From an uncultured Cohaesibacter sp. (GTDB lineage: Bacteria; Pseudomonadota; Alphaproteobacteria; Rhizobiales; Cohaesibacteraceae), in contig NZ_OY821667.1 in the NCBI RefSeq assembly GCF_963682185.1, forward strand, positions 1,986,001-2,050,000: a stretch of 64,000 nt of DNA, read 5' to 3'. Each line of letters starts with the position of its first letter. Within the stretch, counting starts at the first letter, position 1. Below the pieces are notes generated by a model. The model worked only from the letters and a program-made list of their open reading frames with translations, was not told the origin of the DNA and searched no databases. Shown here one piece after another: positions 13,813-35,984 of this stretch. The translations under genes and the position numbers were made by a program.

Positions 13813-14808
13813 GTGCTATCAACCCTGCTTGACAGTATTTTCCGCTCGGCGACACGCAAAGAAGTCACCTACGCCTCTCCGTCCCTCGACATTTGTGAAG
13901 AGCAGGCCGTTGCCAGCATTCTGGGCGAGCCCCCGGCCTTCTGCCTGCCTTTCCAGCCCATGAATGCCAAGACCTATGTCGGTTGGGGGCAAAAGTCCGG
14001 ACGTCACGCAAGGCGCATGGCCAAGAAGCGCAACGCGCAGATGCTGCTGCTCGAAGACGGTTTTCTACGCTCTCATGATCGCAACGATCCACCACTGGCG
14101 ATCGCCCTTGATGATCTGGGCATCTATTATGATGCCTATGCTCCGTCCAGACTTGAAAAACTGATCCCCACCGAGCTGACGCCGGATGAAGAGCGCCGCA
14201 TTGCCTCCATTCTGTCGCGCTGGAGAGAGCTTCGCCTTTCCAAATATAATGCCGGTGCGGAATATAAGGGCGAGCTGCCGGAAGATTATGTTCTGGTGAT
14301 CGATCAGGTGCGTAATGACGCATCGATCCGTTTCGGCATGGCCGATGCAAAGGCATTCCAGACCATGCTGGAGACCGCCTGCACGGAAAATCCGGGCCGC
14401 GAGATTGTTGTAAAAATGCACCCGGATATCTATACAAGGTCAAAATCTGGCCATTTTGATATTGGTGAAATAGACAATCAGAAGAATATAAAGGTAATTG
14501 CAGAGGGATGCCTTCCCTCCCGGCTGATCGAAAATGCCGCGAAGATATATACGGTAACGTCACAAATAGGCTTTGAAGCCCTGATATGGGAGAAACCAGT
14601 AAGATGCTTCGGCATGCCCTTCTATGCAGGGTGGGGGCTAACGGAAGACTTTTTACCAGCCCCAAAGCGCCGACAAACCGCAACCTTGGCTCAGTTAGCG
14701 ATGGCAGCATTGGTCTTTTATCCACGCTACGTAGATTTGCTCGCCGGGCAGGCTTGCGAGATTGAAAGAGCTATTGACTATCTGGCAGAACTCAAGCAAA
14801 AAGCTTGA
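13813..14808 (+). CDS. Single-domain capsule Kdo-transferase-like protein, resembling the first half of KpsC
   Basis: 331 residues from a GTG start. It belongs to the capsule_synth family (KpsC/KpsS/LipA). Recognisable segments are YVGWGQKSGRHARRMAKK (about residue 55), LLLEDGFLRS (about residues 77-86), DDLGIYYDAYAPSRLEKLI (about residue 100), VLVIDQVRNDASI (about residue 160), IVVKMHPDIYTRSKSGHF, and YTVTSQIGFEALIWEKPVRC with FYAGWGLTED. E. coli KpsC is about 675 residues with two such modules building the beta-Kdo linker of group-2 capsules. The VVDQ-type segment and the VTSQxGFEAL version fit the N-terminal module better, from memory of the E. coli protein. It lies upstream of the PKS gene, separated by 116 bases, and about 10 kb from the gene for the other half. 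Confidence 0.82.
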   Translation: MLSTLLDSIFRSATRKEVTYASPSLDICEEQAVASILGEPPAFCLPFQPMNAKTYVGWGQKSGRHARRMAKKRNAQMLLLEDGFLRSHDRNDPPLAIALDDLGIYYDAYAPSRLEKLIPTELTPDEERRIASILSRWRELRLSKYNAGAEYKGELPEDYVLVIDQVRNDASIRFGMADAKAFQTMLETACTENPGREIVVKMHPDIYTRSKSGHFDIGEIDNQKNIKVIAEGCLPSRLIENAAKIYTVTSQIGFEALIWEKPVRCFGMPFYAGWGLTEDFLPAPKRRQTATLAQLAMAALVFYPRYVDLLAGQACEIERAIDYLAELKQKA

Positions 14809-14924
14809 ATTCGGTTTTATTTCGCGGAATTTGTTTTTTGTAAAAAGCGTGTATGTTGCGGGGTTTGTTCTTCGTTTTCCTAGGCTACGAGCTGTAAAGA
14901 CAGTGAAAGACAATTGTAATAACG

Positions 14925-17900
14925 ATGAGTGACAACTGGGTTGAAGTAATCGGGCGGTCTTGCCGCCTTCCTGGAGCCAATAGTGTATCCGCGTTCTGGG
15001 ATTTACTGGTTTCGAATAAATGCAGCGTAGGGGAAATCGGACAGGACCGGTTTTCGACCTTTCGTTATTTGCATCCCAAATCGGGCCAGGCTGGCAAAAC
15101 CTATACATTTCGCGCTGGCGTTCTGGACGATGTCTGGGGCTTCGACCCTTCCGTCTTTTCCCTGTCCCCTCGTGAAGCTACGCAAATGGACCCGCAGCAG
15201 CGTTTGCTGCTGATGCTCGTTTGGGAAGCACTCGAAGAAGCCGGTCTGCCCATTTCCGACGTTGCCGGTTCCAATATCGGCGTGTTTGTCGGCAACTCCG
15301 GCAGCGATCACTCAAACCGTTTCTTCTTCGACCCTGCCAGCTCCGACAGCTTCATGATGACGGGCAATACCCTGTCGCTGGTTTCCAACCGCATTTCCTA
15401 CGTTTATGATCTGCATGGCCCAAGCTTCACGGTCGATACCGCCTGCTCATCGTCACTGGTGGCCCTCGACCTGGCACTAAAGCGCCTGCAGTCGGGCGAA
15501 ATTGATACCGCCATCGTTGCGGGCGTCAACCTGCTGCTCTCGCCCTTCCCGTTTGTTGGCTTTGCAGCCGCATCCATGTTGTCGCCGCAGGGGCTTTGCC
15601 GCCCCTTTGATGAAGATGCCAATGGCTATGTGCGCGCCGAAGGGGCCGTTGCCCTCGTACTGCAGCGCAAGGAAGCCTTTGATCCGAAACAGCAAAAGAG
15701 CTTCGGCCGCATCGTTGCCTCCGGCATCAACTCCGATGGCCGCACCTCGGGCGTTGCCCTGCCGTCCATGGATTTCCAGTCGGCGCTGCTCAAGCAACTC
15801 TATTCCGACATCAATCTGGACCCCAATGCGCTCGCCTTCATCGAAGCCCATGGCACCGGCACCCGCGTCGGCGACCCGGCAGAAGCCTTCGCGCTGGGCC
15901 AAGTTCTGGGCCAGAAGCGCGACAAACCGCTGCCGATTGGCTCGGTCAAGTCCAATCTGGGCCATCTGGAGCCCGCCTCAGGCCTCGTCAGCGTTCTGAA
16001 ATCGCTGCTGTCACTTGAAAACAACCTGCTGCCTGCCAGCCTGCATATCGAAAATCCCAATCCGGATATCCCGTTTGAAGACCTCAATCTGGCCTTGAAC
16101 AGCGAAGCCACGGTTTTGAAAAAGGGCAAGGACATCCGTTATGCCGGCATCAACAATTTCGGCTTTGGCGGTACCAACGCGCATGTTCTGGTCTCCGATA
16201 CCAAGCCAGCACGTCCGGCAAAAGCCAAACCTCTCGCAGCCTCGACCAAGTCGGGCGGCGAAACGACTGCCGAGCCAAGCACACCGACGCTCCTTGTTCT
16301 CTCTGCCAGAACCGAAGATGCCCTCAAGGCCCTGGCAGTCAAGAGCGCGGATGCGATTGCTGCGGATGATACCGCGAGCCTTGCAGACTGGAGCAATGGC
16401 TTTGGCTGGCATCGCTCCCTTCTGGACGAACGCCTGAGCATTGTTGCCAAAAGCAAATTGGAGCTGACCGAAGCGCTTGAAGCCTTCGCACAGGAAGAAA
16501 AGCATCCGGCGCTGATCCACGCCACCGCATCTCGCGCAACCAAGGCACCGGTCTTTGTCTATTCTGGCAATGGCGCTCAATTTGCAGGCATGGGGCAGGA
16601 AGCCTATGAGCAGAACGCCGCCTTTGCAGCAGCCTTTGATAAGGTCGACGCGTTCTTCCTGCCGCTTGCAGGCTGGTCCCTCAAGGACAAGCTGTTTGAA
16701 GACAATCTGAAAGAAGATCTCAAACAGACCTCGGTCGCGCAGCCGTTGCTCTTTGCCGTGCAGGTCGCCTTGACCGAAGCGCTGAAAGCCTCCGGCATGA
16801 CCGCCAGTGGCGTCATGGGCCATTCAGTCGGCGAAGTCGCTGCGGCTTGGGCCTGTGGTGCCCTTGATCTCAAACAGTCCGTCGAAGTCATCTATTGGCG
16901 TTCACACCATCAGGAAGCCGTGGCAGGCACAGGCCGCATGGCCGTGATCAAGCTTTCTGTTGCAGAAACTCAGGCCCTGTTGACCGCAGAGGGCTTTGAC
17001 AAGGTCGAGATTTCCGCGATCAACACCGATAAGTCCCTGACGCTTTCCGGCGAAACCACAGAGCTGGAAGCCTTCCTGAAGATCGCTCGCAAGAAGCGCC
17101 TTGCCGCCAAGATGCTGGATATCAACTATCCCTTCCATTCCAACGTGGTTGAGCCCATCAAAGATGGCCTGCTCAAGGATCTGGAAAGCATCAAGCCAAG
17201 CAAGGCAAAACTGCCATTCTATTCCGCGGTTACAGGCACCTGCCTTCAAGGCAAGGAAATGGACGGCCAATATTGGTGGCAGAATGTGCGTCAGCCGGTG
17301 CGCTTCCTAAGCGCTGTCGAAGCCGCCTTCGCCGATGACCAGACCCAGTTTCTCGAAATTGGTCCGCGCGCCATTCTCAAAGGCTACATCGCGGAAACAG
17401 CGCGGGATCGTGCCCAGACCATCGTTGCGACAGAAAGCCTGACGCAGAAGACAGTAAAAGACCTCGACCCTGTGCAACTGGCCATCGGCCGGGCCATTGC
17501 CAACGGCATGCTGTTTGACAAGAAAACCGTTTTTGGCGCCAACAAGCCTTGTTCCGTTGCGCTTCCCAGCTATCCTTGGCAGCTCAAACCCTTCAAACTG
17601 CGCCCAAGCAGCGAAGCCTTTGACATTTTCAACGACAAGGTTGTCCCACACGCCCTGCTCGGACAACAGATCCGTGAAGAAGAGCATGTCTGGTCTACCG
17701 AGTTGGACACGGCACAAATCCCGTATCTTGAGCATCACAAGGTGGATGGCAAGGTCATCCTGCCCGGTGCCGCCTTCGCAGAAATGGCGCTGGCTGCCGC
17801 GCAGATTGCCTTCAAAACCGACCGTGTCGAAATTCGTGACATGGATCTGTTGCAAGCCTTACCGCTTGGAGAAGATCAGATTTCGTCCATTCTCACACGC

Positions 17901-20900
17901 CTTGACACCACTTCGGGCGTGGTTGAAATTTCCAGCCGAGCCCGTCTGGTTGATGACGAATGGCAATTGCATGCAAAATGTCGCGTCGCGAAGATTCCGG
18001 GCGATGTGGGCGAAGACCGTTCAGACTATGAGCTCAAGGCGCCAGATGCGAGCCGTACATCCGCGCCCGAAGAGATCGAAGCGCTCTATGCCATGTCGCG
18101 CGAATTCGGGCTGGATTTCGGCCCGGCCTTTCAGCGCATAACTTATTGCAAGCGCATTGACGATGCGTATATCGAGCTCGTCATCGCTGACCGCGACGCC
18201 TTCACCTCCAAGCGGGAAGAGCTGGCTGCCCCCTATGCCCTGCATCCACTGGATTTCGATGCCTGCTTCCATGGACTGAACACGCTTTATGAAAGTCTGG
18301 AAGACGGCGCAGAGAAAATGGCCTTCATTCCGGTTCGCTTAGGGCGTCTACGCATTCTGCAATCCGGCGTGGCTCTTCGCTCGGCCCGCCTGCATGTGAT
18401 CCGTTCCAACGCACGCGGTATCAAGGCCGATATCGACATGTTCAGCGACGATGGCTCTCTGGTGGCAACCTTAAGGGATGGCCGCTTCCGTGCATCCGCT
18501 CTTGTGCAGCGTCAAGGGCTGGACCGCCTGACCTATTTCTACGATTCCCTGAAACAATCATCTCCCGGTGTGGAAACGCAGGGCGCTCCGATCGACGCGG
18601 CGGCGCTTACCGAAGCCCTCAAGGGCCTCTCCTTGCCAAATCGCGCCCCGATCGACGACGGCCAGATGCTGCTACAGGCAGCCAGTCGGCGTGGTGCCTA
18701 TGATATCCTTCGTCAATTTGCGAAAGACGATCTGACACTGTCCGAATCGTCTCTGCCTCGTCTCACCGTGCGGGACGATCTGGACGGAGAGCATGCAGAT
18801 GAAGATCTCAGAAGCCGGTCGATCCACCGCAAACAGATCTTCGGTGCTCTGGTTTCCATCTGTGAGCAGTCCGGCCTGGTCAGCGCATCTGAAGACGGTT
18901 TGACGCTGGCAGAGGACAGTGGCCTGCCAGAATTCAGCCAGATCCTGCAAATGCTGCTGAGCGAAAATCCGCTTTGGTCGGCAGATTGCGTCATGCTCAA
19001 TCATGCACTGATGCGCATGCCAGAGATGCTGCGCACCATGCAGCAAGATGCAGAAAACCACGCCCAGCCGCAGGATCTCTATTCGCACGATCTGTTCGAA
19101 CAGCATTTGAGCTCCTCGCCTCTGTCTGAAGCCCATGTGGCGCAGGTTACCGCGGCCTTCAAAGCCGCCCTTGACCTGTGGCCGGAAGGGCGTCCGCTGC
19201 GCGTTCTGGAATTCGGTGTAGGCGGCGCCAAGCTGACCAAAGCCATTCTCCCGCTACTGGAAGAGAAAAAAGGCATTCTGGTTTCTGCCGATACCAACAA
19301 GTTGATCATTGACCGCCTGCGCATCCTGTTTGCCAACTCGATCCATTTCGAAGCCGTGGCGCTGCGCTCGGATCTTGAAGCACTTGAGCCGTTCGGTCCG
19401 TTTGATCTCGTCGTTTCGGCCAATGGCCTACAGATGATGGATCAGGCCTCCTCCATGCTTAACCCGCTGTCGGCTCTGCTCGCCAAAGACGGCATGATGC
19501 TGATGAGCCTGTCGGATGCCAACGTCTATCAGGATCTTGTCTTCGGACCAGCCACAAGCTGGTTCGACCATTCCGTTGATCCGTCGTTCCCTGTTTCGCG
19601 CTTTGGTGCTGCCAAGGATTGGTGCAACTGGCTGGGTGAAGCCGGGTTTAGCGCCATAGAGTTGGCTCCTTTTGCCAACGCGCAAGGCGAACCCGATATC
19701 ACCGGAGCCTATCTTCTGACCGCAGCAAGCAAACTATCTGCAAAGGCAGAAGAAACAACTGATATTCCGCTGCTAGACGCAGAGCACAGAACCGTCGTGC
19801 TTCTGACAAATGGCAAAGATGCCGGGGCAACAGCCATTGCTGAAGCGCTCACCACACAAGCACCGGCTCCGAATCTTGTCTGCTTTGACGTCACAAACGC
19901 TGACGAGTGGGAAAAGGCGACCGCCCTCATTTGCGCCAGCCAACCTGATGACAAACTGGATGTCATCTATGCCGCTGGTAGTGAGAGCACGGAAAAAGCA
20001 CACATGGAGCGCCTCACCGGTCGCCTGCATAAACTGGCCGATCTCGTGCGCACCACGTCAAGCATCCCGATGCGCCTCTGGATCATCGCTCCGGGTGGCT
20101 ATCCGGGTGCAGAGAATCAGAAAAGCGATCCGGTTCAAAATTCTGTCTGGGCCTTTGGCCGCACGGTCAGCAACGAATATGACAACCATGACGTACGCTT
20201 GGTCGATTTCGCTGATACGCTGACCGCCTCCGATCAGGCAGCTAGGCTTGCAAGCCTCATCCAAGAACCGGGCGAAGAACGCGAGATCCTGCTTGAAGAT
20301 GAAGCACAGAGTGTCATTCGTGTAAGACGCGGCTGGCCGCAGCCTGTAAGGCATGAAGCAGCCTTCGGCAAGGACGATGGCTGTCAACTTTATCATCCGC
20401 GCACAGGCTCCTTTGATCGCCTGCAATGGGTTCCAACCAAACGCCGCAAGCCGGCCGAAGGCGAAGTGGAAATCGAAGTCGTGGCCGCTGGCCTCAACTT
20501 CCGAGATGTGATGTGGGCGCAAGGACTGCTGCCTGAGGAAGCGCTGGAAGACGGTTTTGCCGGCCCGACCCTTGGCTTTGAATGCTCCGGCCGCATCGTG
20601 GCAACGGGCAAGGGTGTCTCCGATCTCAAGATTGGCGATCCGGTCATGACGCTGGCCCCTGCCAGTTTTGCCTCTCATGTAACGGTCTCCGACAGTGCGG
20701 TTTCCAAATTGCCCGAAACGGTGGATCTTGTTGCCGCAGCGACCATGCCGGTGGCGTTCCTGACCAGCTATTATGCCCTGCATTATCTGGCCCGCCTTGA
20801 AGAAGGCGAATGGGTGCTCATCCACGGCGCAGCAGGGGCCGTTGGCCTTGCTGCATTGCAGATTGCCAAATGGCGCGGTGCCCGCATTATCGCCACCGCT

Positions 20901-22631
20901 GGCAATGATGAAAAACGCGACTTCCTGAGGATGCTTGGCGCAGATCATGTGCTTGACACCCGCTCGCTCGATTTTGTCGATCAGGTGCGCGCCATTACAC
21001 GCAAAGCCGATGGTCCGGATCAGGAAGGCGTCGATGTCGTCCTCAACTCGCTGTTTGGCGAAGCGATGGAACGCAGCATCGAACTGGTGCGTCCATTCGG
21101 TCGCTTCCTTGAGCTGGGCAAGCGTGATTTCTATGGCAACACCCAGATTGGCCTGCGCCCGTTCCGCCGCAACATCAGCTATTTCGGCATTGATGCGGAC
21201 CAGCTGCTCAACAAGCAACCGGCGCGCGCCAAACGTCTCTTTAACGAACTGGCTGACCTGATCGCTGAGGAACAGTTCACACAGCTGCCTTATCGCCTGT
21301 TTGACAGCGCTGATATCGTTGATGCTTTCCGCCTGATGCAGCGCTCTGGCCATATCGGCAAGATCGTCGTCAAGGCGCCGAAACCAATGGCCGATCCGGC
21401 TGATAAAGCGCCATCCAAGGTTAATTCCGAAGGCCATCACATTCTTGTTGGCGGTCTTGGCGGCTTCGGGATCGAGGTGGCGCGCTGGCTGGCTGATCAG
21501 GGCGCAAAATCTATCGTCCTCACCAATCGCTCGGGCAAACTTTCCGATGCGGCATTGGCGCTGCAGACCAAATTGGCCGCAAGCGATTGCGCGCTGGTGG
21601 TCAAGCCATGCGATGTGTCCGATCCGGCTGCACTGGAGAGCCTGTTCGCCGAATTGCGTAAGGAGCGTCCGATCAGCGGCGTCATGCATATGGCCGCCGT
21701 TCTCGATGACGTGTTGCTTGCCAATATGAGCAACGAACAGATCGACAAGGTACTCGGACCGAAGGTGCTCGGCGGCGACAATCTCGATATGGTCACGCGC
21801 AAGGATGATCTGGATTATTTCTGGCTCTTCTCCTCCGTCTCAGTCCTGATGGGCAACCCGGGCCAAGCAAACTATGTGGCGGCCAACAGCTACATGGATG
21901 GTCTGGCACGCAAACGTCAGCAGCAAGGCCTGCCCGCCCTCGCCATCGGCTGGGGTGCGATCACCGACGTAGGCATTCTGGAACGCGACAAGCAGACAGC
22001 AGAGATTCTGGCAAGAACCACGGGCGGCATCGAATTCAAGGCAAGGCAAGCCTTGGATCATCTCGCCAAACTGCTCGCACAGGTGCCTTCAGAAAGCCAT
22101 TTGGCGACCATCACGCTGGCTCCGATGAACTGGGCCTATGCGCATGACAATCTGCCAATTCTGAAAACACCGGCCTATGAATTGCTCAAGAAGGAAGCGG
22201 CTCAATCGTCCAGAAGCGGCCAGCAGTCCCTTGATGTCAGCAGCTTGATCGACGGTCTTGATGACGTAGCGGCGCGTGGTGAAATTGCCAAGATTCTGGC
22301 GCAGGAAGTGGCGGATATCTTCCGCATGCCGGTTGAGGAAATCAACCTCAAGCGCTCACTGACCGATCTGGGCATGGACAGCCTGATGGGTATGGAACTG
22401 CGCACAGCGGCACAGCAGAAGCTCGATATTGAAATCCCCATGGGGGCCATTGCCGATGGCACGACCATTGAGGATATCGCAGCCAAGGTGCTTGAACGCA
22501 TTCGTGGCGATGCCGATAACGGCGGTTTGTCCTTCACAGAGGAAACCCTGCTTCATCAGCATATAAGCAGCGAAAGTGATGCCACAAGCCTTGCATCCAA
22601 ACTCAACGAAATACGCAAGAGCGACATGTAA
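14925..22631 (+). CDS. rkpA: Reducing type I polyketide synthase of the capsule locus (RkpA-like), KS-AT-DH-cMT-ER-KR-ACP
   Basis: 2568 residues with one complete reducing module. KS spans about 1-425 with Cys174 (DTACSSS), His309 (EAHGTGT) and His347 (NLGHLEPASG). AT covers about 540-840 with Ser634 in GHSVGE and YPFHS near 735. DH covers about 905-1190 with His938 (HKVDGKVILP) and an Asp in LDFDACFHGL near 1112. A methyltransferase-like region follows (SAM loop LEFGVGGAKLT near 1430). ER covers about 1845-2150 (HGAAGAVGLAALQ near 1967), KR about 2165-2350 (GGLGGFGIEVARWL; SSVS and YVAANSYMDG), and ACP about 2440-2520 with phosphopantetheine Ser2486 (LGMDSLMGMEL). No thioesterase is present. 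The order with an oxoamine synthase, an SDR and a KpsC-like gene matches the Sinorhizobium rkp-1 region. The product is probably a reduced, perhaps methyl-branched acyl chain made iteratively. Confidence 0.93.
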   Translation: MSDNWVEVIGRSCRLPGANSVSAFWDLLVSNKCSVGEIGQDRFSTFRYLHPKSGQAGKTYTFRAGVLDDVWGFDPSVFSLSPREATQMDPQQRLLLMLVWEALEEAGLPISDVAGSNIGVFVGNSGSDHSNRFFFDPASSDSFMMTGNTLSLVSNRISYVYDLHGPSFTVDTACSSSLVALDLALKRLQSGEIDTAIVAGVNLLLSPFPFVGFAAASMLSPQGLCRPFDEDANGYVRAEGAVALVLQRKEAFDPKQQKSFGRIVASGINSDGRTSGVALPSMDFQSALLKQLYSDINLDPNALAFIEAHGTGTRVGDPAEAFALGQVLGQKRDKPLPIGSVKSNLGHLEPASGLVSVLKSLLSLENNLLPASLHIENPNPDIPFEDLNLALNSEATVLKKGKDIRYAGINNFGFGGTNAHVLVSDTKPARPAKAKPLAASTKSGGETTAEPSTPTLLVLSARTEDALKALAVKSADAIAADDTASLADWSNGFGWHRSLLDERLSIVAKSKLELTEALEAFAQEEKHPALIHATASRATKAPVFVYSGNGAQFAGMGQEAYEQNAAFAAAFDKVDAFFLPLAGWSLKDKLFEDNLKEDLKQTSVAQPLLFAVQVALTEALKASGMTASGVMGHSVGEVAAAWACGALDLKQSVEVIYWRSHHQEAVAGTGRMAVIKLSVAETQALLTAEGFDKVEISAINTDKSLTLSGETTELEAFLKIARKKRLAAKMLDINYPFHSNVVEPIKDGLLKDLESIKPSKAKLPFYSAVTGTCLQGKEMDGQYWWQNVRQPVRFLSAVEAAFADDQTQFLEIGPRAILKGYIAETARDRAQTIVATESLTQKTVKDLDPVQLAIGRAIANGMLFDKKTVFGANKPCSVALPSYPWQLKPFKLRPSSEAFDIFNDKVVPHALLGQQIREEEHVWSTELDTAQIPYLEHHKVDGKVILPGAAFAEMALAAAQIAFKTDRVEIRDMDLLQALPLGEDQISSILTRLDTTSGVVEISSRARLVDDEWQLHAKCRVAKIPGDVGEDRSDYELKAPDASRTSAPEEIEALYAMSREFGLDFGPAFQRITYCKRIDDAYIELVIADRDAFTSKREELAAPYALHPLDFDACFHGLNTLYESLEDGAEKMAFIPVRLGRLRILQSGVALRSARLHVIRSNARGIKADIDMFSDDGSLVATLRDGRFRASALVQRQGLDRLTYFYDSLKQSSPGVETQGAPIDAAALTEALKGLSLPNRAPIDDGQMLLQAASRRGAYDILRQFAKDDLTLSESSLPRLTVRDDLDGEHADEDLRSRSIHRKQIFGALVSICEQSGLVSASEDGLTLAEDSGLPEFSQILQMLLSENPLWSADCVMLNHALMRMPEMLRTMQQDAENHAQPQDLYSHDLFEQHLSSSPLSEAHVAQVTAAFKAALDLWPEGRPLRVLEFGVGGAKLTKAILPLLEEKKGILVSADTNKLIIDRLRILFANSIHFEAVALRSDLEALEPFGPFDLVVSANGLQMMDQASSMLNPLSALLAKDGMMLMSLSDANVYQDLVFGPATSWFDHSVDPSFPVSRFGAAKDWCNWLGEAGFSAIELAPFANAQGEPDITGAYLLTAASKLSAKAEETTDIPLLDAEHRTVVLLTNGKDAGATAIAEALTTQAPAPNLVCFDVTNADEWEKATALICASQPDDKLDVIYAAGSESTEKAHMERLTGRLHKLADLVRTTSSIPMRLWIIAPGGYPGAENQKSDPVQNSVWAFGRTVSNEYDNHDVRLVDFADTLTASDQAARLASLIQEPGEEREILLEDEAQSVIRVRRGWPQPVRHEAAFGKDDGCQLYHPRTGSFDRLQWVPTKRRKPAEGEVEIEVVAAGLNFRDVMWAQGLLPEEALEDGFAGPTLGFECSGRIVATGKGVSDLKIGDPVMTLAPASFASHVTVSDSAVSKLPETVDLVAAATMPVAFLTSYYALHYLARLEEGEWVLIHGAAGAVGLAALQIAKWRGARIIATAGNDEKRDFLRMLGADHVLDTRSLDFVDQVRAITRKADGPDQEGVDVVLNSLFGEAMERSIELVRPFGRFLELGKRDFYGNTQIGLRPFRRNISYFGIDADQLLNKQPARAKRLFNELADLIAEEQFTQLPYRLFDSADIVDAFRLMQRSGHIGKIVVKAPKPMADPADKAPSKVNSEGHHILVGGLGGFGIEVARWLADQGAKSIVLTNRSGKLSDAALALQTKLAASDCALVVKPCDVSDPAALESLFAELRKERPISGVMHMAAVLDDVLLANMSNEQIDKVLGPKVLGGDNLDMVTRKDDLDYFWLFSSVSVLMGNPGQANYVAANSYMDGLARKRQQQGLPALAIGWGAITDVGILERDKQTAEILARTTGGIEFKARQALDHLAKLLAQVPSESHLATITLAPMNWAYAHDNLPILKTPAYELLKKEAAQSSRSGQQSLDVSSLIDGLDDVAARGEIAKILAQEVADIFRMPVEEINLKRSLTDLGMDSLMGMELRTAAQQKLDIEIPMGAIADGTTIEDIAAKVLERIRGDADNGGLSFTEETLLHQHISSESDATSLASKLNEIRKSDM

Positions 22632-22740
22632 TGTCCGCCCTTGCCTTTTCTTCTGGTAAACCGCTACCGTTATTCGTAGATTGTGATTTTATAGCACACT
22701 GACGCGAATGATCCGGAAATCGAGAGGCATGCTTCAGCAG

Positions 22741-22766
22741 ATCAAGAGATCGCGCGATCTTTTGAT
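22741..22766. promoter_or_regulatory. 26-base near-perfect palindrome between the PKS and oxoamine synthase genes
   Basis: ATCAAGAGATCG (22741-22752) pairs with CGATCTTTTGAT (22755-22766) across a CG centre. All 12 positions pair in RNA if one G-U wobble is allowed. It lies in the 181-base gap between the PKS stop (22631) and the downstream ATG (22813). There is no T-run, so it is more likely an operator or an RNA stability/processing hairpin than a terminator. The gap is unusually long for this operon. Confidence 0.5.
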
Positions 22767-22812
22767 GCTTCGTATTGAAAGCCACTCGACAGAGGAATGA
22801 ATGGAGCAATGA

Positions 22813-24180
22813 ATGTCAAAGCAGCAATTTGATCGGGACGCTATTCTGAATTTGTCTCGATCAATGGCCAAAGGTGCCGCGCCCAAACCTGTGCCGACCC
22901 GCGAAACCCGCACAAAGGCCGACCGCTCGAAGACTGATTTTGCAACTCTGGACCTTTATCAGCAGATCGCCATCCAACGACAAATGGCAGAGAAGCTGCA
23001 AACGAGAGATCCATACTTCGCCTTGCATGAAACGCGCGCTGGCGCGACAACCATCGTGAATGGCAAAGAGCTGATCAATTTCGCCTCTTACGACTATCTC
23101 GGCCTCAACGGCCTTGCCGAGGTACAAGAGGCAGCCAAAGCTGCCATTGATGCGTTTGGAACATCCGTATCCGGCTCACGCCCCACATCAGGGGAACGCC
23201 CCTTCCATTCTGCGCTTGAGCGACAATTGGCTGAACTTTATGAAAGCGAAGCAGCGCTCGTTTTCGTCTCCGGGCACGCTACCAACGTGTCCACCATCGG
23301 TGAGTTGCTCGGCCCCACCGATCTGGTGGTGTTCGATGCCTATAGCCACAATTCAGTGACCACCGGCTGCAAGCTTTCCGGCGCCACAAGACGCTCCTTC
23401 AAGCATAATGATCTTGATGATCTTGAACGCATTCTGGAAGAAACCCGCAACGCCCATGACCGCGTCATGATTATTGCCGAAGGCCTCTACTCGATGGATG
23501 GCGACATGCCGGATCTTGCCCGCCTCGTAGAGATCAAGGAACGCTTCGCAGCATGGCTTCTGGTCGATGAAGCCCACTCACTGGGCGTTTTGGGTGCAAC
23601 GGGCAAGGGTCTGTTCGAACAGCAGGGCGTTGATCCCAGCAAGATCGACATCTGGATGGGCACCATGAGCAAGACCATGAGTGGCTGCGGGGGCTATATC
23701 TGCGGCAATCAGGTGCTGATTGATATCCTGAAATTCTTCGCGTCCGGCTTCATGTATAGCGTGGGCCTGTCTGCGCCACTGGCTGTCGCCGGGGCAAAGT
23801 CGCTCGAGATCATGCAGAGAGAACCATGGCGCGTTGAAAAGCTGCAGTCCAATGGTCGCTATTTCAAAAAGGCTGCGCAAGACGCCGGATTGGATACGGG
23901 CCTTAGCGCAGGCTTCTGCGTCGTCCCGGTCATTGTTGGCGACAGCCTGCGCGCTGTCAAATTGAGCAACAACCTGATGGACCGAGGCATTTACGCCTTC
24001 CCCATCACTTATCCTGCAGTGCCCATGAACAGCGCCCGCTTGCGCTTTTTCATCAGCGCCACTCATAGCGAAGAACAATTGCAACAGGCTGTCGACATCA
24101 CAGCTGAGGAATTACGCAAGCTGGAAGAGGCCAACTTCTCCATTGCCACCTCCCTGAGCACCCTCAATACGGAAGAATGA
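22813..24180 (+). CDS. rkpG: PLP-dependent alpha-oxoamine synthase (AONS/serine palmitoyltransferase family), RkpG-like
   Basis: 455 residues, with about 60 extra N-terminal residues compared with BioF-type enzymes. The fold-type I PLP site is intact: Lys287 in MGTMSKTMSGCGGYICG, Asp252 and His255 in VDEAHSLG, GTSVSGSRPTSGERPFHSAL in the substrate loop, and FASYDYLGLNGL near residue 100. Family members condense an acyl thioester with an amino acid, losing CO2, to give an amino-ketone. The adjacent PKS has an ACP but no thioesterase, so this enzyme is a good candidate to release its chain. Amino acid and acyl donor are unknown. The start follows a GGAG site. The stop overlaps the SDR start by 4 bases, indicating coupled synthesis. 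Confidence 0.9.
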   Translation: MSKQQFDRDAILNLSRSMAKGAAPKPVPTRETRTKADRSKTDFATLDLYQQIAIQRQMAEKLQTRDPYFALHETRAGATTIVNGKELINFASYDYLGLNGLAEVQEAAKAAIDAFGTSVSGSRPTSGERPFHSALERQLAELYESEAALVFVSGHATNVSTIGELLGPTDLVVFDAYSHNSVTTGCKLSGATRRSFKHNDLDDLERILEETRNAHDRVMIIAEGLYSMDGDMPDLARLVEIKERFAAWLLVDEAHSLGVLGATGKGLFEQQGVDPSKIDIWMGTMSKTMSGCGGYICGNQVLIDILKFFASGFMYSVGLSAPLAVAGAKSLEIMQREPWRVEKLQSNGRYFKKAAQDAGLDTGLSAGFCVVPVIVGDSLRAVKLSNNLMDRGIYAFPITYPAVPMNSARLRFFISATHSEEQLQQAVDITAEELRKLEEANFSIATSLSTLNTEE

Positions 24181-24968
24181 GCATGCGCCCGCGCTCCATA
24201 TTGATCACTGGAGCCAGTCGCGGACTGGGTGCGGCACTGGCGCGCGCCTACGCCGCTGCGGGTGTTGATCTCATTTTGACCGCCCGCTCGCTGGAGGCCT
24301 TGGCGAGCATCTGCGCAGAGTGCCAAGCATCTGGCGCCAAAGTCCGCTGCCTGCCGCTGGATCTTACCAGCGAAGCCAGCATTGATGACGCATTGGCAGA
24401 AATCGATCTCATCGGCCTGCCGGATCTGCTGATCGCCAATGCCGGGGTTTATTCCGGGCGGCAGGAAAATGGCTTGCTTGAGCCAAGAGATACGCAGAAC
24501 CAACAACTCAGCGTCAACCTGACGGGCACCATCCAGTTTCTCGATCAGTGCGCACAAGGCATGAAGGACAGAGGCTCTGGCCATCTGGCCCTTATCAGTT
24601 CTCTTGCTGCCATCCAGCCGCAACCCGATAGCCCTGTCTATAGCGCAAGCAAAGCAGGCCTTGCCTTTTGGGGCCGATCGATGGCTGAAGATCTCGCCGA
24701 CCATGGTGTACAAATCAGCATCGTCTATCCCGGCCATATCGAAAGCCAGCAAACAGAAATGCAGGTTGGCGCCTTGCCCGGTTTGATGCCAGCCCCTCGC
24801 GCCGCAGAAATCATCCGCAAAGGCATCGACAAGAAACGTGCCCGGATTATTTTCCCACGACATCTTTACTGGCTCATTCTGGTAAGCAATCTCCTTCCCG
24901 GTTGGCTAAGGCGCCGGTTCAACAGACCTTTCCGCTATCACGTCGCGCGTGATGACCGGCCTGAATAG
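24177..24968 (+). CDS. rkpH: Short-chain dehydrogenase/reductase, RkpH-like
   Basis: 263 residues, a classical SDR. The cofactor loop is ITGASRGLGAAL (about residues 9-20), NAG occurs at about residues 88-90, and the active site is Ser in LISSLAA (about residue 142) with Tyr155 and Lys159 in VYSASKAG. After the catalytic core there is a basic, hydrophobic C-terminal stretch (LYWLILVSNLLPGWLRRRFN, about residues 224-243) that could contact the membrane. This resembles reductases acting on long-chain lipid substrates. It is coupled by an ATGA overlap to the oxoamine synthase. It may reduce the amino-ketone product to an amino-alcohol, as 3-ketosphinganine reductase does after serine palmitoyltransferase. 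That chemistry is inferred from pairing. Confidence 0.88.
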   Translation: MSMRPRSILITGASRGLGAALARAYAAAGVDLILTARSLEALASICAECQASGAKVRCLPLDLTSEASIDDALAEIDLIGLPDLLIANAGVYSGRQENGLLEPRDTQNQQLSVNLTGTIQFLDQCAQGMKDRGSGHLALISSLAAIQPQPDSPVYSASKAGLAFWGRSMAEDLADHGVQISIVYPGHIESQQTEMQVGALPGLMPAPRAAEIIRKGIDKKRARIIFPRHLYWLILVSNLLPGWLRRRFNRPFRYHVARDDRPE

Positions 24969-24983
24969 GGAGGCCCTTTCATC

Positions 24984-26099
24984 GTGGCAAATCAGACCAG
25001 AGACTGGATGCAGCGACCGGCCGTGATTTACGGTGTTGGATTCTGGAACAGGAAGTCCATAGCGGGCATGCTCACTTCTTTGCCCGGAAAGCCACGCTTT
25101 ATCCGTTCCTTCAAACGCGCGCTCAAAGCGGCCAAAGACAGCAATGCCAGCCTGTTTGCCTGGGCCACCCGCCTCAGCCCGGAGCAGCGCGCAGCCTGTA
25201 ACGCCGAGGGCGTCCCCATCGTGAATGTAGAAGACGGCTTTATCCGTTCCGTTGGTTTGGGAGCCGCCTTCACTCCGGCAGCATCGCTGATCATGGATGC
25301 AAGCGGTATCTACTACGATCCGTCCCACCCCAGCGATCTGGAAACCATGCTGCAACAGGATACTGTCAGCGGTGAAGAACGCTTACGGGGGCAGGCCTTC
25401 CGCCAAAAGGTCGTTGATTTGGGCGTCTCAAAATACAATCTCGGCAACAAGGCTTCCTCCAAAGGCTGCAGAACTGAGCACACCCCAACAGAAGCCTTGC
25501 GCATTCTCGTCCCCGGTCAGGTCAGCGATGATGCCTCCATCCAGAAAAGCCGCAGCGATAGTCTGGCGCTCGCCTCGGGCGAAAATCCTAACCTTCTGCT
25601 GCTTAAATGGGTACGCGCGCACCACCCCGATGCCCATATCACCTTCAAGCCACACCCGGACGTGACCAATGGCCTGCGCGATGGCAATCTCTCGGACGCG
25701 CAAATGCTGGCATATGCAGACGCGATAGAGCTTGATACCGACATTATCCAATTGATCGAACAGTGTGATTCTCTGCACACGATCAGCTCTCTATCTGGCT
25801 TTGAGGCCTTGTTGCGCGACAAGCATGTGGTCGTGCATGGCCTGCCTTTTTATGCCGGCTGGGGTGTCAGCGAGGATAAAACCAGCTGCCCGCGCCGCAC
25901 CACAAAGCGCAACTTGGATGAACTCGTCTATCTGGCAATGATCAAGTATCCGCACTATGTTTCCCCCCTCACCTTTCACGATTGTGAGGCAGAAGAGACG
26001 GTCGAGCAGCTTTCAGGGTTAAGGAATAATAAAGCCGGATCAGCTAAGGATGTAATAATGCTGCAAATTGCCAGACTTGCCTTCAGACTAGGGCTCTGA
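24984..26099 (+). CDS. Single-domain capsule Kdo-transferase-like protein, resembling the second half of KpsC (RkpJ-like)
   Basis: 371 residues from a GTG start with GGGAGG upstream. It is a capsule_synth-family protein with IVNVEDGFIRSVGLGAA, MDASGIYYDPSHPSDLETML, SKYNLG, ILVPGQVSDDASI, ITFKPHPDVTNGLRDG, and TISSLSGFEALLRDKHVVVH followed by GLPFYAGWG. The VPGQV-DDASI and SLSGFEALL versions resemble the C-terminal module of E. coli KpsC. The gene at 13813 resembles the N-terminal module. Together the two separate proteins could do the work of one KpsC in adding beta-Kdo to the capsule anchor. It follows the SDR gene by 15 bases in the order reported for rhizobial rkpA-G-H and rkpJ. Confidence 0.85.
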   Translation: MANQTRDWMQRPAVIYGVGFWNRKSIAGMLTSLPGKPRFIRSFKRALKAAKDSNASLFAWATRLSPEQRAACNAEGVPIVNVEDGFIRSVGLGAAFTPAASLIMDASGIYYDPSHPSDLETMLQQDTVSGEERLRGQAFRQKVVDLGVSKYNLGNKASSKGCRTEHTPTEALRILVPGQVSDDASIQKSRSDSLALASGENPNLLLLKWVRAHHPDAHITFKPHPDVTNGLRDGNLSDAQMLAYADAIELDTDIIQLIEQCDSLHTISSLSGFEALLRDKHVVVHGLPFYAGWGVSEDKTSCPRRTTKRNLDELVYLAMIKYPHYVSPLTFHDCEAEETVEQLSGLRNNKAGSAKDVIMLQIARLAFRLGL

Positions 26100-26367
26100 G
26101 AAAGACTGGGAGTTAATGCAGCAAAAGCCTTAATACCGTTGAAATTAGGCGCTATCAGTGATATCCAAATTGGCATTGATGAATGTATGTTTCAAATCAA
26201 ACGTGGTGTTTGTGCAACTGTCTGCTCAAAAATGTTGCTAAACAGGATTAACTGATTGATTTAATTTATGCAATTTTTGTATCGTGACTGAAGCATGATG
26301 CAGAAGCTGACGCGCAGATCTCATACGGGGGTGTTATTCCCGTTTGTTACCAACGAGTTATATAACC
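26100..26367. other. Intergenic region upstream of the exporter lipoprotein gene
   Basis: A 268-base AT-rich gap. It probably holds the promoter for the kpsD-kpsS pair. A TTGATT hexamer followed 17 bases later by GTATCG is visible near 26254-26282, but the -10 match is poor, so no promoter is called with confidence. No open reading frame of interest is seen. Confidence 0.4.
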
Positions 26368-27504
26368 ATGCTTAGAATTCTTTTTGCTCTGATAGTCTCC
26401 GCTTCTTTGGCTGGCTGTGTTTTCACGCCAAGAGAAGGGCCCCTATCTGCTGAAATTGAAAAGCAAAGCACCAAGAATGACTATCTTGTGGTTGATGTCG
26501 ATTCGACAGTTGTCGATGGCCTAGCCCGCTTCAACCCCGTTGGTTTGCATAGCAAGTTCAAATCCACGAGCCATCGCCTGCCGATATCCACGGTTGGCAC
26601 CGGCGATATCCTTGCGATCACTGTTTTTGAAGCCGATAATGGCGGTCTGTTCACAGGCAGCTCGGGCAACAGAGCCGAATTCCCCAAGGTTGTCGTCGAC
26701 AACAAAGGTGAAATCTCCCTTCCCTATTCCGGTACCATCAACGTGAAGGGCAAGACACCGCTGCAAATCCAGGATCTCGTGGTAGAGCGTCTGCAAGGCA
26801 AGGCCATTCAGCCACAAGCCATGGTGAATATCGTTCAGAACGAGAACAACGTCGTTACCCTGAGTGGCGACGTGAGCAAGCCAGGCCTTTATCCTTTATC
26901 CTCCAAAGGGGTTCGTCTGCTCGACATTGTCGCACAAGCTGGCGGCACGAAATTCCCGGCACGAGAAACCTATATCACGCTCATGCGCGGCTCCCGTCAG
27001 GGTGTCCAGCTGCTGGAAACCGTGATCGATCAACCGAATGAGAATATCTATGTAGCGCGTGGCGACCGGATCTATCTGTCCCATGATCCGCAACGCTATA
27101 CAGTGCTCGGCGCGGTTAAGAAGCCTTCTGTCTATACCTTTGATTCATCGACAATCTCTGTATTGGAAGCCATTGCAGCAGCAGGTGGCCTGAACGACAA
27201 CAGAGCCGATGCGACAGGCGTCTTCGTCTTCCGCTACGAAGATCCGAAAGTTCTTGATACTTTGAACATTGGCTACACCCATCAGGTCCGTGGCAAAGTT
27301 CCGACTATTTATCGTATTAACATGAAGCACGCACAGTCGTATTTTTATGCGCAGTCCTTCCATTTGCAGGATAAGGATTCAGTATTCGTTTCAAATGCGC
27401 GTGCTGTCGAAGTTGGCAAAATCCTGCAGCTCATGAATATTGCGACTGCGTCCGTAAGAAACATAGCAACGACCGGAAATAAGATTGAAGTTTTCAGCGA
27501 CTGA
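26368..27504 (+). CDS. kpsD: Outer-membrane polysaccharide export lipoprotein (Wza/KpsD-like)
   Basis: 378 residues from the ATG at 26368. An earlier in-frame TTG at 26344 is less likely because the signal peptide begins well at the ATG. MLRILFALIVSASLAGC is a lipoprotein signal with lipobox LAGC and Cys17 as acylation site. The polysaccharide-export domain follows (ISTVGTGDILAITVFEADNG), then SLBB-type repeats with VTLSGDVSKPGLYPLSSKG and YTVLGAVKKPSVYTF. Such proteins form the outer-membrane channel for capsule export, working with the KpsE-type periplasmic protein and the KpsMT ABC transporter encoded nearby on the other strand. Length and lipobox are closer to Wza than to the larger E. 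coli KpsD. Confidence 0.9.
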   Translation: MLRILFALIVSASLAGCVFTPREGPLSAEIEKQSTKNDYLVVDVDSTVVDGLARFNPVGLHSKFKSTSHRLPISTVGTGDILAITVFEADNGGLFTGSSGNRAEFPKVVVDNKGEISLPYSGTINVKGKTPLQIQDLVVERLQGKAIQPQAMVNIVQNENNVVTLSGDVSKPGLYPLSSKGVRLLDIVAQAGGTKFPARETYITLMRGSRQGVQLLETVIDQPNENIYVARGDRIYLSHDPQRYTVLGAVKKPSVYTFDSSTISVLEAIAAAGGLNDNRADATGVFVFRYEDPKVLDTLNIGYTHQVRGKVPTIYRINMKHAQSYFYAQSFHLQDKDSVFVSNARAVEVGKILQLMNIATASVRNIATTGNKIEVFSD

Positions 27505-27515: not shown

Positions 27516-27552
27516 GCAAGCTGATTTTTAATTTTTACCTCATGGTGTTCGC

Positions 27553-28968
27553 GTGACCCAAGAATTGAAAAATTCTATCGAACCAAGTGGAAAGAGGGTC
27601 TTTCTCTTTCTCCAGGGTCACCCCTCGTTTTTTGCCAGAAATGTGGCAAATCACTTGGAAGAACAAGGGCATACCGCGCTACGCATTAACTTTTGCCTCG
27701 GCGACGCCATTTTGTGGCGGGGAAGAAAATCTCACAATTTCCGCAAACCCTTCTCATCTTGGGAATTATATTTGCGGAAATTCATTCAGGCTCACGGCGT
27801 TACTGATATTATCTATTACGCTGATCGGAAGCCTTATCACCAGATCGCAGCCAAAGTGGCTGCTGATTTAGATATTCCAACCTATGCTTTCGAATTTGGC
27901 TACCTCCGCCCAGACTGGATCACTCTGGAGCGTGGTGGCATGTCGGCCTTTTCTCACTTCCCGACCGAGCCAGAAAAGATCAGTGCTATCGCCCGTCAAG
28001 CCGATGACCCGGATCTGGAACAGAGATACCCCTATACCAAGCCACGAGAGATTTTCTACGAAGTCACTTACAATCTGCTCAGCTATTTCCTTTGGTTCTT
28101 CTATCCATTCTATAAAGCAGACCGCTACTACAACCCGCTGGTAGAATATATTTCGGGCATACCCGGCCTCTTTCTTGAAAGTCGTCGGCATCATGCTGCG
28201 CGCAAAATCGTCACACAACTTGGGCGCAAGAGAAGGCCGTTTTTCATTTTTTCTCTGCAGCTGCAAAGCGATTATCAGCTTCGGTCAAACGCGCCATTTT
28301 CGCATCAGAAGCGCGCGATAGAGCAGGTTATTCGATCTTTTGCGAGAACCTCTGACGAACACACAGACCTGATCTTGAAGGCACACCCTTTAGACAATGG
28401 GCTGGAGCGCTGGGGACACTATATCAAGAAAATTTCCAAGGAACTTGGCGTATCTGATCGGGTGCATTTCATCGTTGGTGGCAACCTGACATTCATGCTC
28501 AAGCACGCTCGGGGATGTGTCATGATCAACAGCACGGTTGGTCTGCATTCCGTTCGCTCTGGCTGTCCGGTTAAAGTCTTGGGCCACGCCATTTTTGATA
28601 TTGAAGGCCTTACCCATCAGGGCAGTCTGGACAGTTTCTGGACGCATCCGCAAGCGCCCGATGAAAATTTTGTCAGAGACTTCGTCAAAGCCGTGGCTGT
28701 TTCCATTCAGGTCAAAGGCAATTTCTTCACGACAAAGGGCAACAAGGCTGCGGTGCCTGCCTTTGCAAAGAACCTAATCGAACGCAAAGTCAATGGCTAC
28801 GACGCCTTTGAAGAAATGCCGCCACGGCTGACAACACTGGTGGCTAATGAACCGCCGCTTTATGCGCCCAAGCCGGTTACCGTTGAAATCGACCCAGTCG
28901 AGCAAAAAGAGGTAACGCCAGATCGAATGCCGGTGTTTGTGAACCCGCCCGCAGCGAAGGCAACCTGA
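27553..28968 (+). CDS. kpsS: Capsule Kdo transferase KpsS-like
   Basis: 471 residues from a GTG start, longer than E. coli KpsS (about 390) because of an extra C-terminal tail after about residue 415 rich in Pro, Val and Glu. Typical KpsS segments are FLFLQGHPSFFARNVANHLE (about residues 17-36), INFCLGDAILW, YADRKPYHQIA, YAFEFGYLRPDWITLERGGM (about residues 111-130), FFIFSLQLQSDYQLR, LKAHPLDNGLERW and VMINSTVGLHSVRSGCPVKV (about residues 318-337). KpsS adds the first beta-Kdo to the lipid acceptor of group-2 capsules. Here that acceptor could be the PKS-derived lipid, which is inference. It is 48 bases after kpsD and is the last + strand gene before the convergent kpsMTE set. Confidence 0.9.
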   Translation: MTQELKNSIEPSGKRVFLFLQGHPSFFARNVANHLEEQGHTALRINFCLGDAILWRGRKSHNFRKPFSSWELYLRKFIQAHGVTDIIYYADRKPYHQIAAKVAADLDIPTYAFEFGYLRPDWITLERGGMSAFSHFPTEPEKISAIARQADDPDLEQRYPYTKPREIFYEVTYNLLSYFLWFFYPFYKADRYYNPLVEYISGIPGLFLESRRHHAARKIVTQLGRKRRPFFIFSLQLQSDYQLRSNAPFSHQKRAIEQVIRSFARTSDEHTDLILKAHPLDNGLERWGHYIKKISKELGVSDRVHFIVGGNLTFMLKHARGCVMINSTVGLHSVRSGCPVKVLGHAIFDIEGLTHQGSLDSFWTHPQAPDENFVRDFVKAVAVSIQVKGNFFTTKGNKAAVPAFAKNLIERKVNGYDAFEEMPPRLTTLVANEPPLYAPKPVTVEIDPVEQKEVTPDRMPVFVNPPAAKAT

Positions 28969-29366: not shown

Positions 29367-30494
29367 TCATGCATGCTCTCGCATCACAGCAAGCGATACA
29401 GACACCATGAAATATACCATCAGTGCGATAATCGCACCGGTCAGTATATTATAACCTCTACGCGGATAGAGAGACGCTTCTGGCATGGTCGGTGCGGACA
29501 CGATCGTCAAAAATCGCATACGACGTGCAGTTTCCAACTGCGCAGCTTCAAGCGCCTCCAAATGCGATTTATAGCGCAGCGTCTTATATTCGATCCTTAG
29601 ATTGATATCCCTGAATTCAGAGTCGATTTCACTGAGGGTACGCCCTGATCCACCTGCCAGCCGCTCGTTTTCCTTTTCAATCTGCTGCTTGAGCGCTTCA
29701 CTCTCCGCCCTCAGCCTGATCAGGGTCGGTGAATTTTCACCGAGCGTCCCTTGGCGGGAGGTAATTTCCGCTTGCTTGGCAGCCAATTGCTGCTCAAGGC
29801 TGGAAATGGTTCCTGCAATGGTTTGCGAAGCAATTTCGGTTGAGAAAATTTTGTTCTTCTGTTGGAAATCCTGAAGAACCTTTTTCTCCTGCATCAACTC
29901 TTCTTCTGATTGCTGCACCACACCTTCAAAGAAAAGCAACTGCGAACGCGACACTTTCTCGTTCAGATTATCGATAAACTTCTGGGAGTGATACAGAATG
30001 CGATCAAGGACTTTCTGCGAATAGGCAGGATCGAAGGTTTGAACAGAGATCTCCAAAAGCTTGGCGTCTTCATCCAGAGTGGCCGTCACCATCTCATTAT
30101 AATATTCGAGCGCGTATTCCCTTTCTGTATCTTTTGACAAACGAGAAAAGAAGTCTGCGTCCGAAGAGGCGAAATGGTCCAGCAACCCCAAATCTTCATT
30201 CAACTTATCAAGCAGCGTTGGGCTTTCGATAAAGGCTTTCAAGACAAGAATATCACGGTCAGACGCCGTCGAAGAAGAGAGCCCCAACATCGAGAGATCC
30301 AGCGGACTGCTCTCGGATTTCGCTTCAGTTATATAAATGGATGCCAAACTCTCATATCGATCTGTCGCGATCAGCCCCTGATAAATGGCAACAATGGCAA
30401 TTGGCAATATGAGAATAAATAGAAACAAATATAGCGACAGATTCAGAGCGGGCAATTTGCTCTTAATATCATTGATCATCTTTGGCTCCGACAT
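29367..30494 (-). CDS. kpsE: Capsule export inner-membrane/periplasmic protein KpsE-like (PCP-3 family)
   Basis: 375 residues, the usual KpsE/RkpR length. A first membrane segment lies at about residues 18-41 (LNLSLYLFLFILILPIAIVA), with a long, charged, Gln- and Glu-rich periplasmic region of coiled-coil character (about 165-320). A second membrane segment lies at about 350-372 (ILTGAIIALMVYFMVSVSLA), preceded by SAPTMPEASLYPRRGYN, a conserved proline-containing junction of these proteins. It links the KpsMT transporter to the outer-membrane channel. The start at 30494 lies inside the 3' end of kpsT, an overlap of 26 bases, so it is the last gene of a coupled kpsM-kpsT-kpsE operon. A second Met five codons later is an alternative start. 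Confidence 0.92.
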   Translation of the reverse strand: MSEPKMINDIKSKLPALNLSLYLFLFILILPIAIVAIYQGLIATDRYESLASIYITEAKSESSPLDLSMLGLSSSTASDRDILVLKAFIESPTLLDKLNEDLGLLDHFASSDADFFSRLSKDTEREYALEYYNEMVTATLDEDAKLLEISVQTFDPAYSQKVLDRILYHSQKFIDNLNEKVSRSQLLFFEGVVQQSEEELMQEKKVLQDFQQKNKIFSTEIASQTIAGTISSLEQQLAAKQAEITSRQGTLGENSPTLIRLRAESEALKQQIEKENERLAGGSGRTLSEIDSEFRDINLRIEYKTLRYKSHLEALEAAQLETARRMRFLTIVSAPTMPEASLYPRRGYNILTGAIIALMVYFMVSVSLAVMREHA

Positions 30495-35981: not shown

Positions 35982-35984
35982 CTC

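Follow-up and report, generated by a model that had tools for sequence, protein, structure and literature searches.

Which lipid does a capsule stand on when its locus carries a lipid pathway of its own? This question is raised by a stretch of 64,000 nucleotides from an uncultured Cohaesibacter sp. (assembly GCF_963682185.1, contig NZ_OY821667.1, positions 1,986,001 to 2,050,000; hereafter the window), in which genes for a polyketide synthase (PKS), an alpha-oxoamine synthase (AOS) and a short-chain dehydrogenase/reductase (SDR) lie within a group 2 (ABC transporter-dependent) capsule locus. On the plus strand, positions 13813-28968 encode, in this order, an N-type half of KpsC, the PKS, the AOS, the SDR, a C-type half of KpsC, a KpsD-type and a KpsS-type protein, with KpsE-, KpsT- and KpsM-like genes downstream on the minus strand (Table 1). 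Judged from the kinship of the encoded proteins, the product of PKS, AOS and SDR is very probably a sphingoid base. We further consider it reasonably probable that the whole chain holds, i.e. that this lipid is made and then used by KpsS as the anchor of the capsule, a use that we infer. Gene content, relatedness, co-occurrence and KpsS grouping come from this analysis; sphinganine formation and serine preference were determined in Pseudomonas by others.

The Pfam domains of the PKS are arranged as ketosynthase (KS, residues 6-376), acyltransferase (AT, 543-831), dehydratase (DH, 909-1191), a weak methyltransferase-like stretch (about 1416-1579, under the Pfam cut-offs), enoylreductase (ER, 1845-2149), ketoreductase (KR, 2170-2347) and acyl carrier protein (ACP, 2458-2520), and no thioesterase was found by Pfam in this protein. 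It carries DTACSSS, HGTGT and NLGH (KS), GHSVGE (AT), HxxxGxxxxP (DH), GAAGAVG (ER), GGLGGFG and S..Y..N (KR) and LGMDSL (ACP), which we take to be the motifs of these domains. The reducing PKS ending in an ACP without a thioesterase, as described in an earlier note on this DNA, is hence borne out by the open reading frame call, Pfam and motifs. The same note had described an intact pyridoxal phosphate (PLP) site in the AOS and an SDR overlapping it by 4 bases. Both descriptions hold: H179, D252, H255, K287 and R411, to which we ascribe the presumed roles in this site, are conserved in alignments to solved serine palmitoyltransferases (SPTs), and the SDR starts at 24177, before the AOS stop ends at 24180.

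The best profile for the AOS was bioF (354 bits), followed by the BioF/Kbl subfamily (309) and two SPT models (301 and 295), all under their curated cut-offs; for the canonical bacterial SPT model NF047599, 301 bits stand against a cut-off of 500. Assignment as a biotin enzyme was rejected, because the bioF match stays under the cut-off and relatives of this AOS come with a PKS in 77 of 80 loci (best 80 of 580 matches). The window genome holds two oxoamine synthases, namely this AOS and one 33% identical to it, which is probably 5-aminolevulinate synthase, and a profile search of the genome found no canonical SPT over the cut-off. The nearest relatives of the AOS are from Cohaesibacter. AOS relatives with 43-48% identity are also found on Planktothrix and Streptomyces plasmids, the Planktothrix one being annotated inside a polyketide synthase. 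The window SDR shares 36-41% identity with the KpsS-neighbouring SDRs of related loci (L037, L039, L053, L065, L070-L074; L numbers denote loci read in relatives, G numbers sampled genomes), while the 31 PKS-negative KpsS loci read gave a single 39-bit match, in L087. We predict the role of a 3-keto-sphinganine reductase for the SDR.

The proposed chemistry has a precedent in Pseudomonas fluorescens MYb115, where SgaA (PKS) and SgaB (AOS) yield C24, C26 and C28 sphinganines, SgaB has a near-exclusive preference for serine over alanine and glycine, and SgaC (SDR) is the presumed reductase (Nat Commun 2025, PMC12134224). The view that the product of this gene set is chemically undefined is therefore out of date. 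We tied the window to this cluster through a close relative, L137 (P. putida 31753), and not through the MYb115 genome itself. In L137, the published forward primer of sgaA fits at 22/22 positions where the PKS starts, and the sgaA end primer at 20/24 where it stops; L152 and L161 both match at 18/22 at the start, and at 20/24 and 21/24 at the end, respectively. No sgaA primer match was found at the PKS start or end of L145 or in plasmid L208 (Pseudomonas sp. TMW 2.1634), and the sgaB end primer matched at best 16/22 anywhere. Window and L137 share 54% identity over 389 residues of the AOS and 35% over 2578 aligned positions of the PKS, and 20 of 22 columns hand-picked around the PLP site are identical across nine AOS sequences, including those of the window and Pseudomonas. 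Like SgaABC, the window thus combines a monomodular reducing PKS ending in an ACP without a thioesterase, an adjoining AOS and, in the same locus, an SDR resembling those of related loci. The earlier proposal of a PKS-made acyl chain, SPT-like off-loading and SDR reduction to an amino-alcohol is accordingly well supported by kinship to proteins with measured products.

The Pseudomonas PKS-AOS clusters are capsule loci. In L137, L145 and L152, PKS and AOS are followed further on by KpsC-type genes, a GacH/LtaS-like phosphoglycerol transferase (PGT), the SDR and KpsS; the fourth locus, L161, stops 0.9 kb past the AOS. Plasmid L208 carries four genes between AOS and SDR (phytanoyl-CoA dioxygenase, capsular protein, GNAT and lipoteichoic acid (LTA) synthase family), and past the SDR KpsS- and KpsC-type genes, then phosphotransferase, KpsF, KdsB and KdsA. 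The MYb115 locus tags (RS19800 for the AOS, RS19775 for the SDR) would likewise be compatible with four intervening genes, provided that tags rise in increments of five. Among the best 80 of 580 AOS matches, many of them cut by contig ends or the 10 kb flank, 77 loci have the PKS, 35 PGT, 24 KpsS, 38 any Kps-type gene, 58 a Kps-type gene or PGT and 22 neither. In the main text of PMC12134224, where capsul, rkp and wcb have no occurrences, no link to capsules is drawn.

In order to gauge how regularly AOS and KpsS occur together, we used 397 evenly drawn Pseudomonadota genomes, of which 20 were AOS-positive (at least 426 bits; next best match in another genome 351) and 75 KpsS-positive (best PF05159 E value up to 1e-40, our own threshold). 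Strong KpsS was present in 18/20 AOS genomes and 57/377 others (Fisher p = 2e-12, uncorrected for shared ancestry). Among the matches listed, AOS and a PF05159 match are no more than about 15 kb apart on the same contig in at least 12 of the 20, and they lie on different contigs in six. Of 20 Cohaesibacteraceae genomes, 13 carry AOS and KpsS, six neither, one AOS alone (G405) and none KpsS alone; two of the six are less than 90% complete, and in one of the six, G402, a lone PF05159 match of 20 bits was left uncounted. The gene order kpsC-PKS-AOS-SDR-kpsC-kpsD-kpsS is kept in five of six same-genus relatives read (L200, L201, L202, L204 and L206, not L199), so the arrangement is not due to chance. 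A second genus of the family is represented by L203, where PKS-AOS-kpsD is found in the stretch read and KpsS lies about 0.6 Mb away.

KpsS itself divides by lipid genes. We built KpsS trees of 52, 75, 78 and 80 rows, which are unrooted, so that a PKS-positive grouping means one side of a branch; L091, having no KpsS row, is outside them. The PKS label needs two changes in every tree versus 17-25 in shuffles, with 0/500 as low. PKS-positive rows of alpha-, beta- and gammaproteobacteria group together, with set supports of 92 (52 rows), 99 (75 rows) and 98 (78 rows). Outside this sphingoid-linked group are E. coli KpsS, which groups with PKS-negative rows as the window KpsS does not, and the PKS-negative rows of f2 and f4, two families that also hold PKS-positive rows. 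The only PKS-negative rows inside the group are G249, G344, G273 and G263, all with a canonical SPT (595-608 bits); PGT adjoins KpsS in the first three and is one gene away in G263. Paired adjacent KpsS paralogues were seen in Stappia and related genomes (L043, L045, L067, L069, L172, L173).

KpsC serves as a control for such grouping. It adds Kdo to Kdo and is hence expected to be indifferent to the lipid, which KpsS touches. Both genes were compared in 31 loci, of which 14 are PKS-positive and from which two SPT loci were excluded. A single branch (SH-aLRT 94, not starred) sets the PKS-positive KpsS apart, and the same grouping is rejected for KpsC (AU p = 1e-5, a difference of 175 log units). 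When the two SPT loci are included (33 loci, 16 of them positive; a grouping defined after the tree was seen), it is not rejected for KpsS (p = 0.47) and rejected for KpsC (p = 5e-9). Removing L152, whose sole usable KpsC row is not the copy beside KpsS, left 30 loci with KpsS again on one side (94) and the KpsC grouping rejected (p = 7e-4). These tests cover loci with KpsC of at least 600 aa and so exclude split-KpsC loci, the window included. KpsC is itself non-random, its PKS label needing five changes versus about 11 in shuffles. A general linked-gene effect is nevertheless spoken against, since KpsS splits with the lipid and the KpsC of the same loci does not.

A further gene, which the earlier note had not considered, belongs to the set in many relatives, Sinorhizobium rkp-1 included: the PGT, which is encoded beside SDR-KpsS, measures about 500-540 aa and could make phosphoglycerol-sphinganine, a close mimic of lyso-phosphatidylglycerol (lyso-PG). 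Its Pfam match is PF00884; the name of that family, Sulfatase, was not adopted, as the solved relatives of the profile are the phosphoglycerol transferase GacH (best, 2e-32) and LTA enzymes. At a threshold of 368 bits (next score 275), 16/397 genomes are PGT-positive. All 16 are sphingoid-competent (12 with AOS, four with SPT but no AOS), compared with AOS or SPT in 40/381 others, and 15 of them have KpsS; among the 52 KpsS genomes of the sample with neither AOS nor SPT, PGT occurs in none. Glycerol phosphate on sphinganine adds 154 Da by arithmetic, which agrees with the MYb115 lipids heavier by 154 Da, most likely phosphoglycerol sphingolipids (PMC12134224). PGT is carried by relatives of the Sga cluster, not by the window, and is not named as part of that cluster in PMC12134224.

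Other modifying genes occur near these sets. A YghO-like sphinganine N-acyltransferase, 31-36% identical to E. coli YghO, is present in L036, L046, L055, L056, L058, L060 and L062, and the same-strand order PKS-AOS-YghO-like acyltransferase-KpsS in L055 hints at a ceramide form; no such acyltransferase was found in the window genome. A formyltransferase-like gene, which may cap the sphingoid amine, lies near SDR-KpsS or AOS in L037, L039, L065, L068 and L074 (PF00551 tested in L037, L039 and L065 only) and, by BLAST matches of 76-96 bits, in L128, L140, L141, L151, L166, L167, L171, L176 and L185. PGT also stands upstream of PKS and AOS in L051 (G270), L170, L175, L181 and L183 (Ralstonia, Burkholderia lata, Paraburkholderia, Cupriavidus), where KpsS was not found in the stretch read; L051 has an LpxC-like gene (221.7 bits) between PKS and AOS.

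How else might these data be explained? The sphingolipids made by the gene set could remain free and serve the outer membrane or signalling while the capsule stays anchored on (lyso)PG, the shared locus merely bringing together co-travelling envelope functions. The AOS-positive genomes without strong KpsS (G012, G270, G405) speak for this, as do the YghO-like enzymes in some AOS loci, which would suit ceramide synthesis, and the sphinganines that accompany protection of the nematode host in MYb115 (PMC12134224). We nevertheless regard it as unlikely, as linkage alone leaves unexplained why KpsS splits by lipid when KpsC of the same loci does not, and SPT genomes without the PKS share the same KpsS group. 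PGT, in turn, might decorate the exported polysaccharide with phosphoglycerol and have nothing to do with the lipid. GacH, its best solved relative, adds phosphoglycerol to a streptococcal carbohydrate, and enzymes of the LtaS/GacH type are active on the outer side of the cytoplasmic membrane. Such a role is quite improbable in view of the strict company that PGT keeps: in the 397 genomes its strong matches are found only with a sphingoid synthase (16/16, and 0/52 of KpsS genomes lacking one), it often adjoins SDR and KpsS, and lipids of +154 Da are reported in a relative (PMC12134224).

The anchor might also differ from sphinganine, if the AOS took glycine or alanine to give a deoxy-sphingoid or other aminoketone, or if the PKS chain were branched or hydroxylated. 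The top score of the AOS for bioF instead of SPT and a possibly active methyltransferase stretch would fit, but the strong serine preference of SgaB (PMC12134224) and the 20 of 22 PLP-site columns equal in window and Pseudomonas AOS make this a variant to which we give little credence. The Swf PKS of sponge symbionts was rejected as a counterpart: its authors distinguish it from WcbR/RkpA, and no oxoamine synthase figures in their list of operon genes (PMC3908369).

Several observations weigh against a sphingoid anchor for the capsule. The PKS-AOS set without strong KpsS in G012 and G270 (the two such cases among the 397) and in G405 indicates that the lipid can serve other uses; in the G405 locus, L199, KpsS and KpsC are missing, and what comes after PKS-AOS is a 615-aa protein whose end resembles a thioesterase, together with an SDR. 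By itself, SPT shows no association with KpsS (7/38 vs 68/359, p = 0.6), and G103, with SPT and KpsS but without PGT, falls outside the KpsS group. Common descent of the genomes is not corrected for in the Fisher tests, the PKS-negative tree rows are 30 of 57 such KpsS genomes, hand-picked from the top of the list and ten of them from family f18, and the 33-locus grouping was drawn post hoc. Profile searches found no PGT anywhere in the window genome, whose two PF00884 proteins resemble ordinary sulfatases in our judgement, nor is it present in G215, G217, G346, G393, G155 and G353, the six other genomes of the window's 11-row KpsS set in the 52-row tree. Two members that joined this KpsS subclade in subsequent trees, L150 and L207 of S. 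meliloti, do carry PGT, so the window lineage may have lost it. KpsS works inside the cytoplasmic membrane and the relatives of PGT outside, so that phosphoglycerol-sphinganine would need to flip. Finally, the capsular polysaccharide of S. meliloti 1021 is said to carry a 'phospholipid anchor' (PMC7902896). That anchor may be a glycerophospholipid, and the wording fits phosphoglycerol-sphinganine and plain PG alike.

Among the closest described systems, rkp-1 of S. meliloti reportedly makes a 'specific lipid carrier', an older claim (Kiss 1997, as cited in PMC4881576). In S. meliloti Ak57 (L207), PKS, AOS, SDR, a 512-aa PGT-like protein and KpsS follow each other consecutively. The reading frame of the 512-aa protein (L207:16295-17833) has no gene entry in the pSymB table of S. 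meliloti. The protein matches the PGT profile with probability 100 and GacH at 4e-9, and would be RkpI by gene order (rkpABCDEFGHIJ, PMC7902896). PKS, AOS, SDR and the KpsS-like gene have the same order and direction in the window, and both KpsS fall in one subclade. The interval between SDR and KpsS holds the PGT-like gene in rkp-1 and a KpsC half plus KpsD in the window, which therefore has four of the five genes of the PKS-AOS-SDR-PGT-KpsS set, PGT not being found.

In E. coli, KpsS places the first Kdo onto (lyso)PG (PMC7694667, PMC10148158). The window shares with this group 2 system KpsS, both KpsC modules, KpsM, KpsT, KpsE and KpsD, though KpsS (240.7 bits against NF050054, cut-off 600), KpsM and KpsE remain under NCBIfam cut-offs. 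It differs in the additional lipid pathway, in a KpsC split into two genes around it and in a KpsS outside the E. coli lineage. Against solved structures, the N-type half scores 193 bits with 6mgb, 183 with 6mgc (E. coli KpsC-N) and 149 with 6mgd (beta-2,7 enzyme). Regarding the flanking KpsC- and KpsS-like Kdo transferases noted earlier, both are present, with the two KpsC halves as immediate flanks of PKS-AOS-SDR and KpsS beginning 2.6 kb past the SDR; these three are the only PF05159 genes found in the whole single-contig 5.39 Mb genome. The canonical SPT pathway of Caulobacter and Sphingomonas has the AOS chemistry in common and is the alternative sphingoid source in the four genomes of the same KpsS group, but it employs a free ACP and an acyl-ACP synthetase where the window has a PKS (PMC9386255).

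Based on these comparisons, we propose that the PKS would assemble a saturated acyl chain tethered to its own ACP, that the AOS would condense it with serine and so free 3-keto-sphinganine without a thioesterase, and that the SDR would reduce this to sphinganine, the long-chain sphingoid base forming the lipid foot of the capsule. KpsS would add the first beta-Kdo to sphinganine itself or to one of its head-group derivatives; extension of the Kdo linker would fall to the two KpsC-type halves, and the finished chain would be exported by KpsMT-E-D. In many relatives PGT may first turn sphinganine into the lyso-PG-like phosphoglycerol-sphinganine; as the window genome has no PGT, KpsS there may act on sphinganine directly or on another derivative. 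The suggestion that the product replaces lyso-PG as the KpsS acceptor thus gains strong indirect support from KpsS grouping, co-occurrence, the KpsC control and PGT. As a tentative and rather doubtful extension, KpsS may fall into two classes by acceptor, using either (lyso)PG or sphingoids (the latter class in alpha-, beta- and gammaproteobacteria, fed by PKS-AOS or SPT), with the window KpsS placing Kdo on the 1-hydroxyl of sphinganine and the capsule being a giant Kdo-glycosphingolipid.

Table 1. Capsule and lipid genes of the window, with predicted functions
Predicted product	Position	Strand	Length and support
KpsC N-module-type beta-Kdo transferase, free-standing half	13813..14808	+	331 aa, GTG start; PF05159 5.4e-44
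Monomodular highly reducing PKS	14925..22631	+	2568 aa; Pfam domains, motifs
AOS, PLP-dependent, predicted serine C-acyltransferase, off-loading the PKS chain as 3-keto-sphinganine	22813..24180	+	455 aa; PF00155 1.2e-53
SDR, predicted 3-keto-sphinganine reductase	24177..24968	+	263 aa; PF00106 1.2e-41
KpsC C-module-type beta-Kdo transferase	24984..26099	+	371 aa, GTG start; PF05159 3.2e-39
KpsD/Wza-type polysaccharide export protein	26344..27504	+	PF02563 + SLBB
KpsS-type first beta-Kdo transferase, sphingoid-linked group	27553..28968	+	PF05159 5.3e-73; trees
KpsE/BexC/CtrB-type protein	29367..30494	-	TIGR01010 3.8e-80, 270 bits, under cut-off 437.5
KpsT-type ABC ATPase, long C-terminal extension	30469..31962	-	PF00005 4e-15
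KpsM-type ABC permease	31890..32723	-	PF01061 6.3e-15; NF050053 1.9e-30, under cut-off

Beyond the transport genes, the window contains two copies of CysD-CysNC-type sulfate activation genes (33187-36773 and 41720-44517), a CysQ-like gene of the inositol monophosphatase type and a sulfotransferase match that is weak (37943-38764, E 0.018), so that its capsule is probably sulfated.

Overall, the chemistry adds a new member to a known pathway, and a capsule anchored on its product, a reading to which the comparisons lend good support, would represent a new form of ABC-dependent capsule; in the literature searched, with subscription journals mostly outside its coverage, we found no paper linking a sphingolipid to the anchor of a KpsS-type capsule. 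If true, this reading would give a function to the PKS of rkp and wcb-type capsule clusters and suggest rkpI as a phosphoglycerol transferase. Capsule anchors would come to include a second class of lipid, and there would be a reason for the phosphoglycerol sphingolipids of Pseudomonas. Many plant-associated and marine Proteobacteria that are not considered sphingolipid producers would then bear a sphingolipid at the foot of their capsule.

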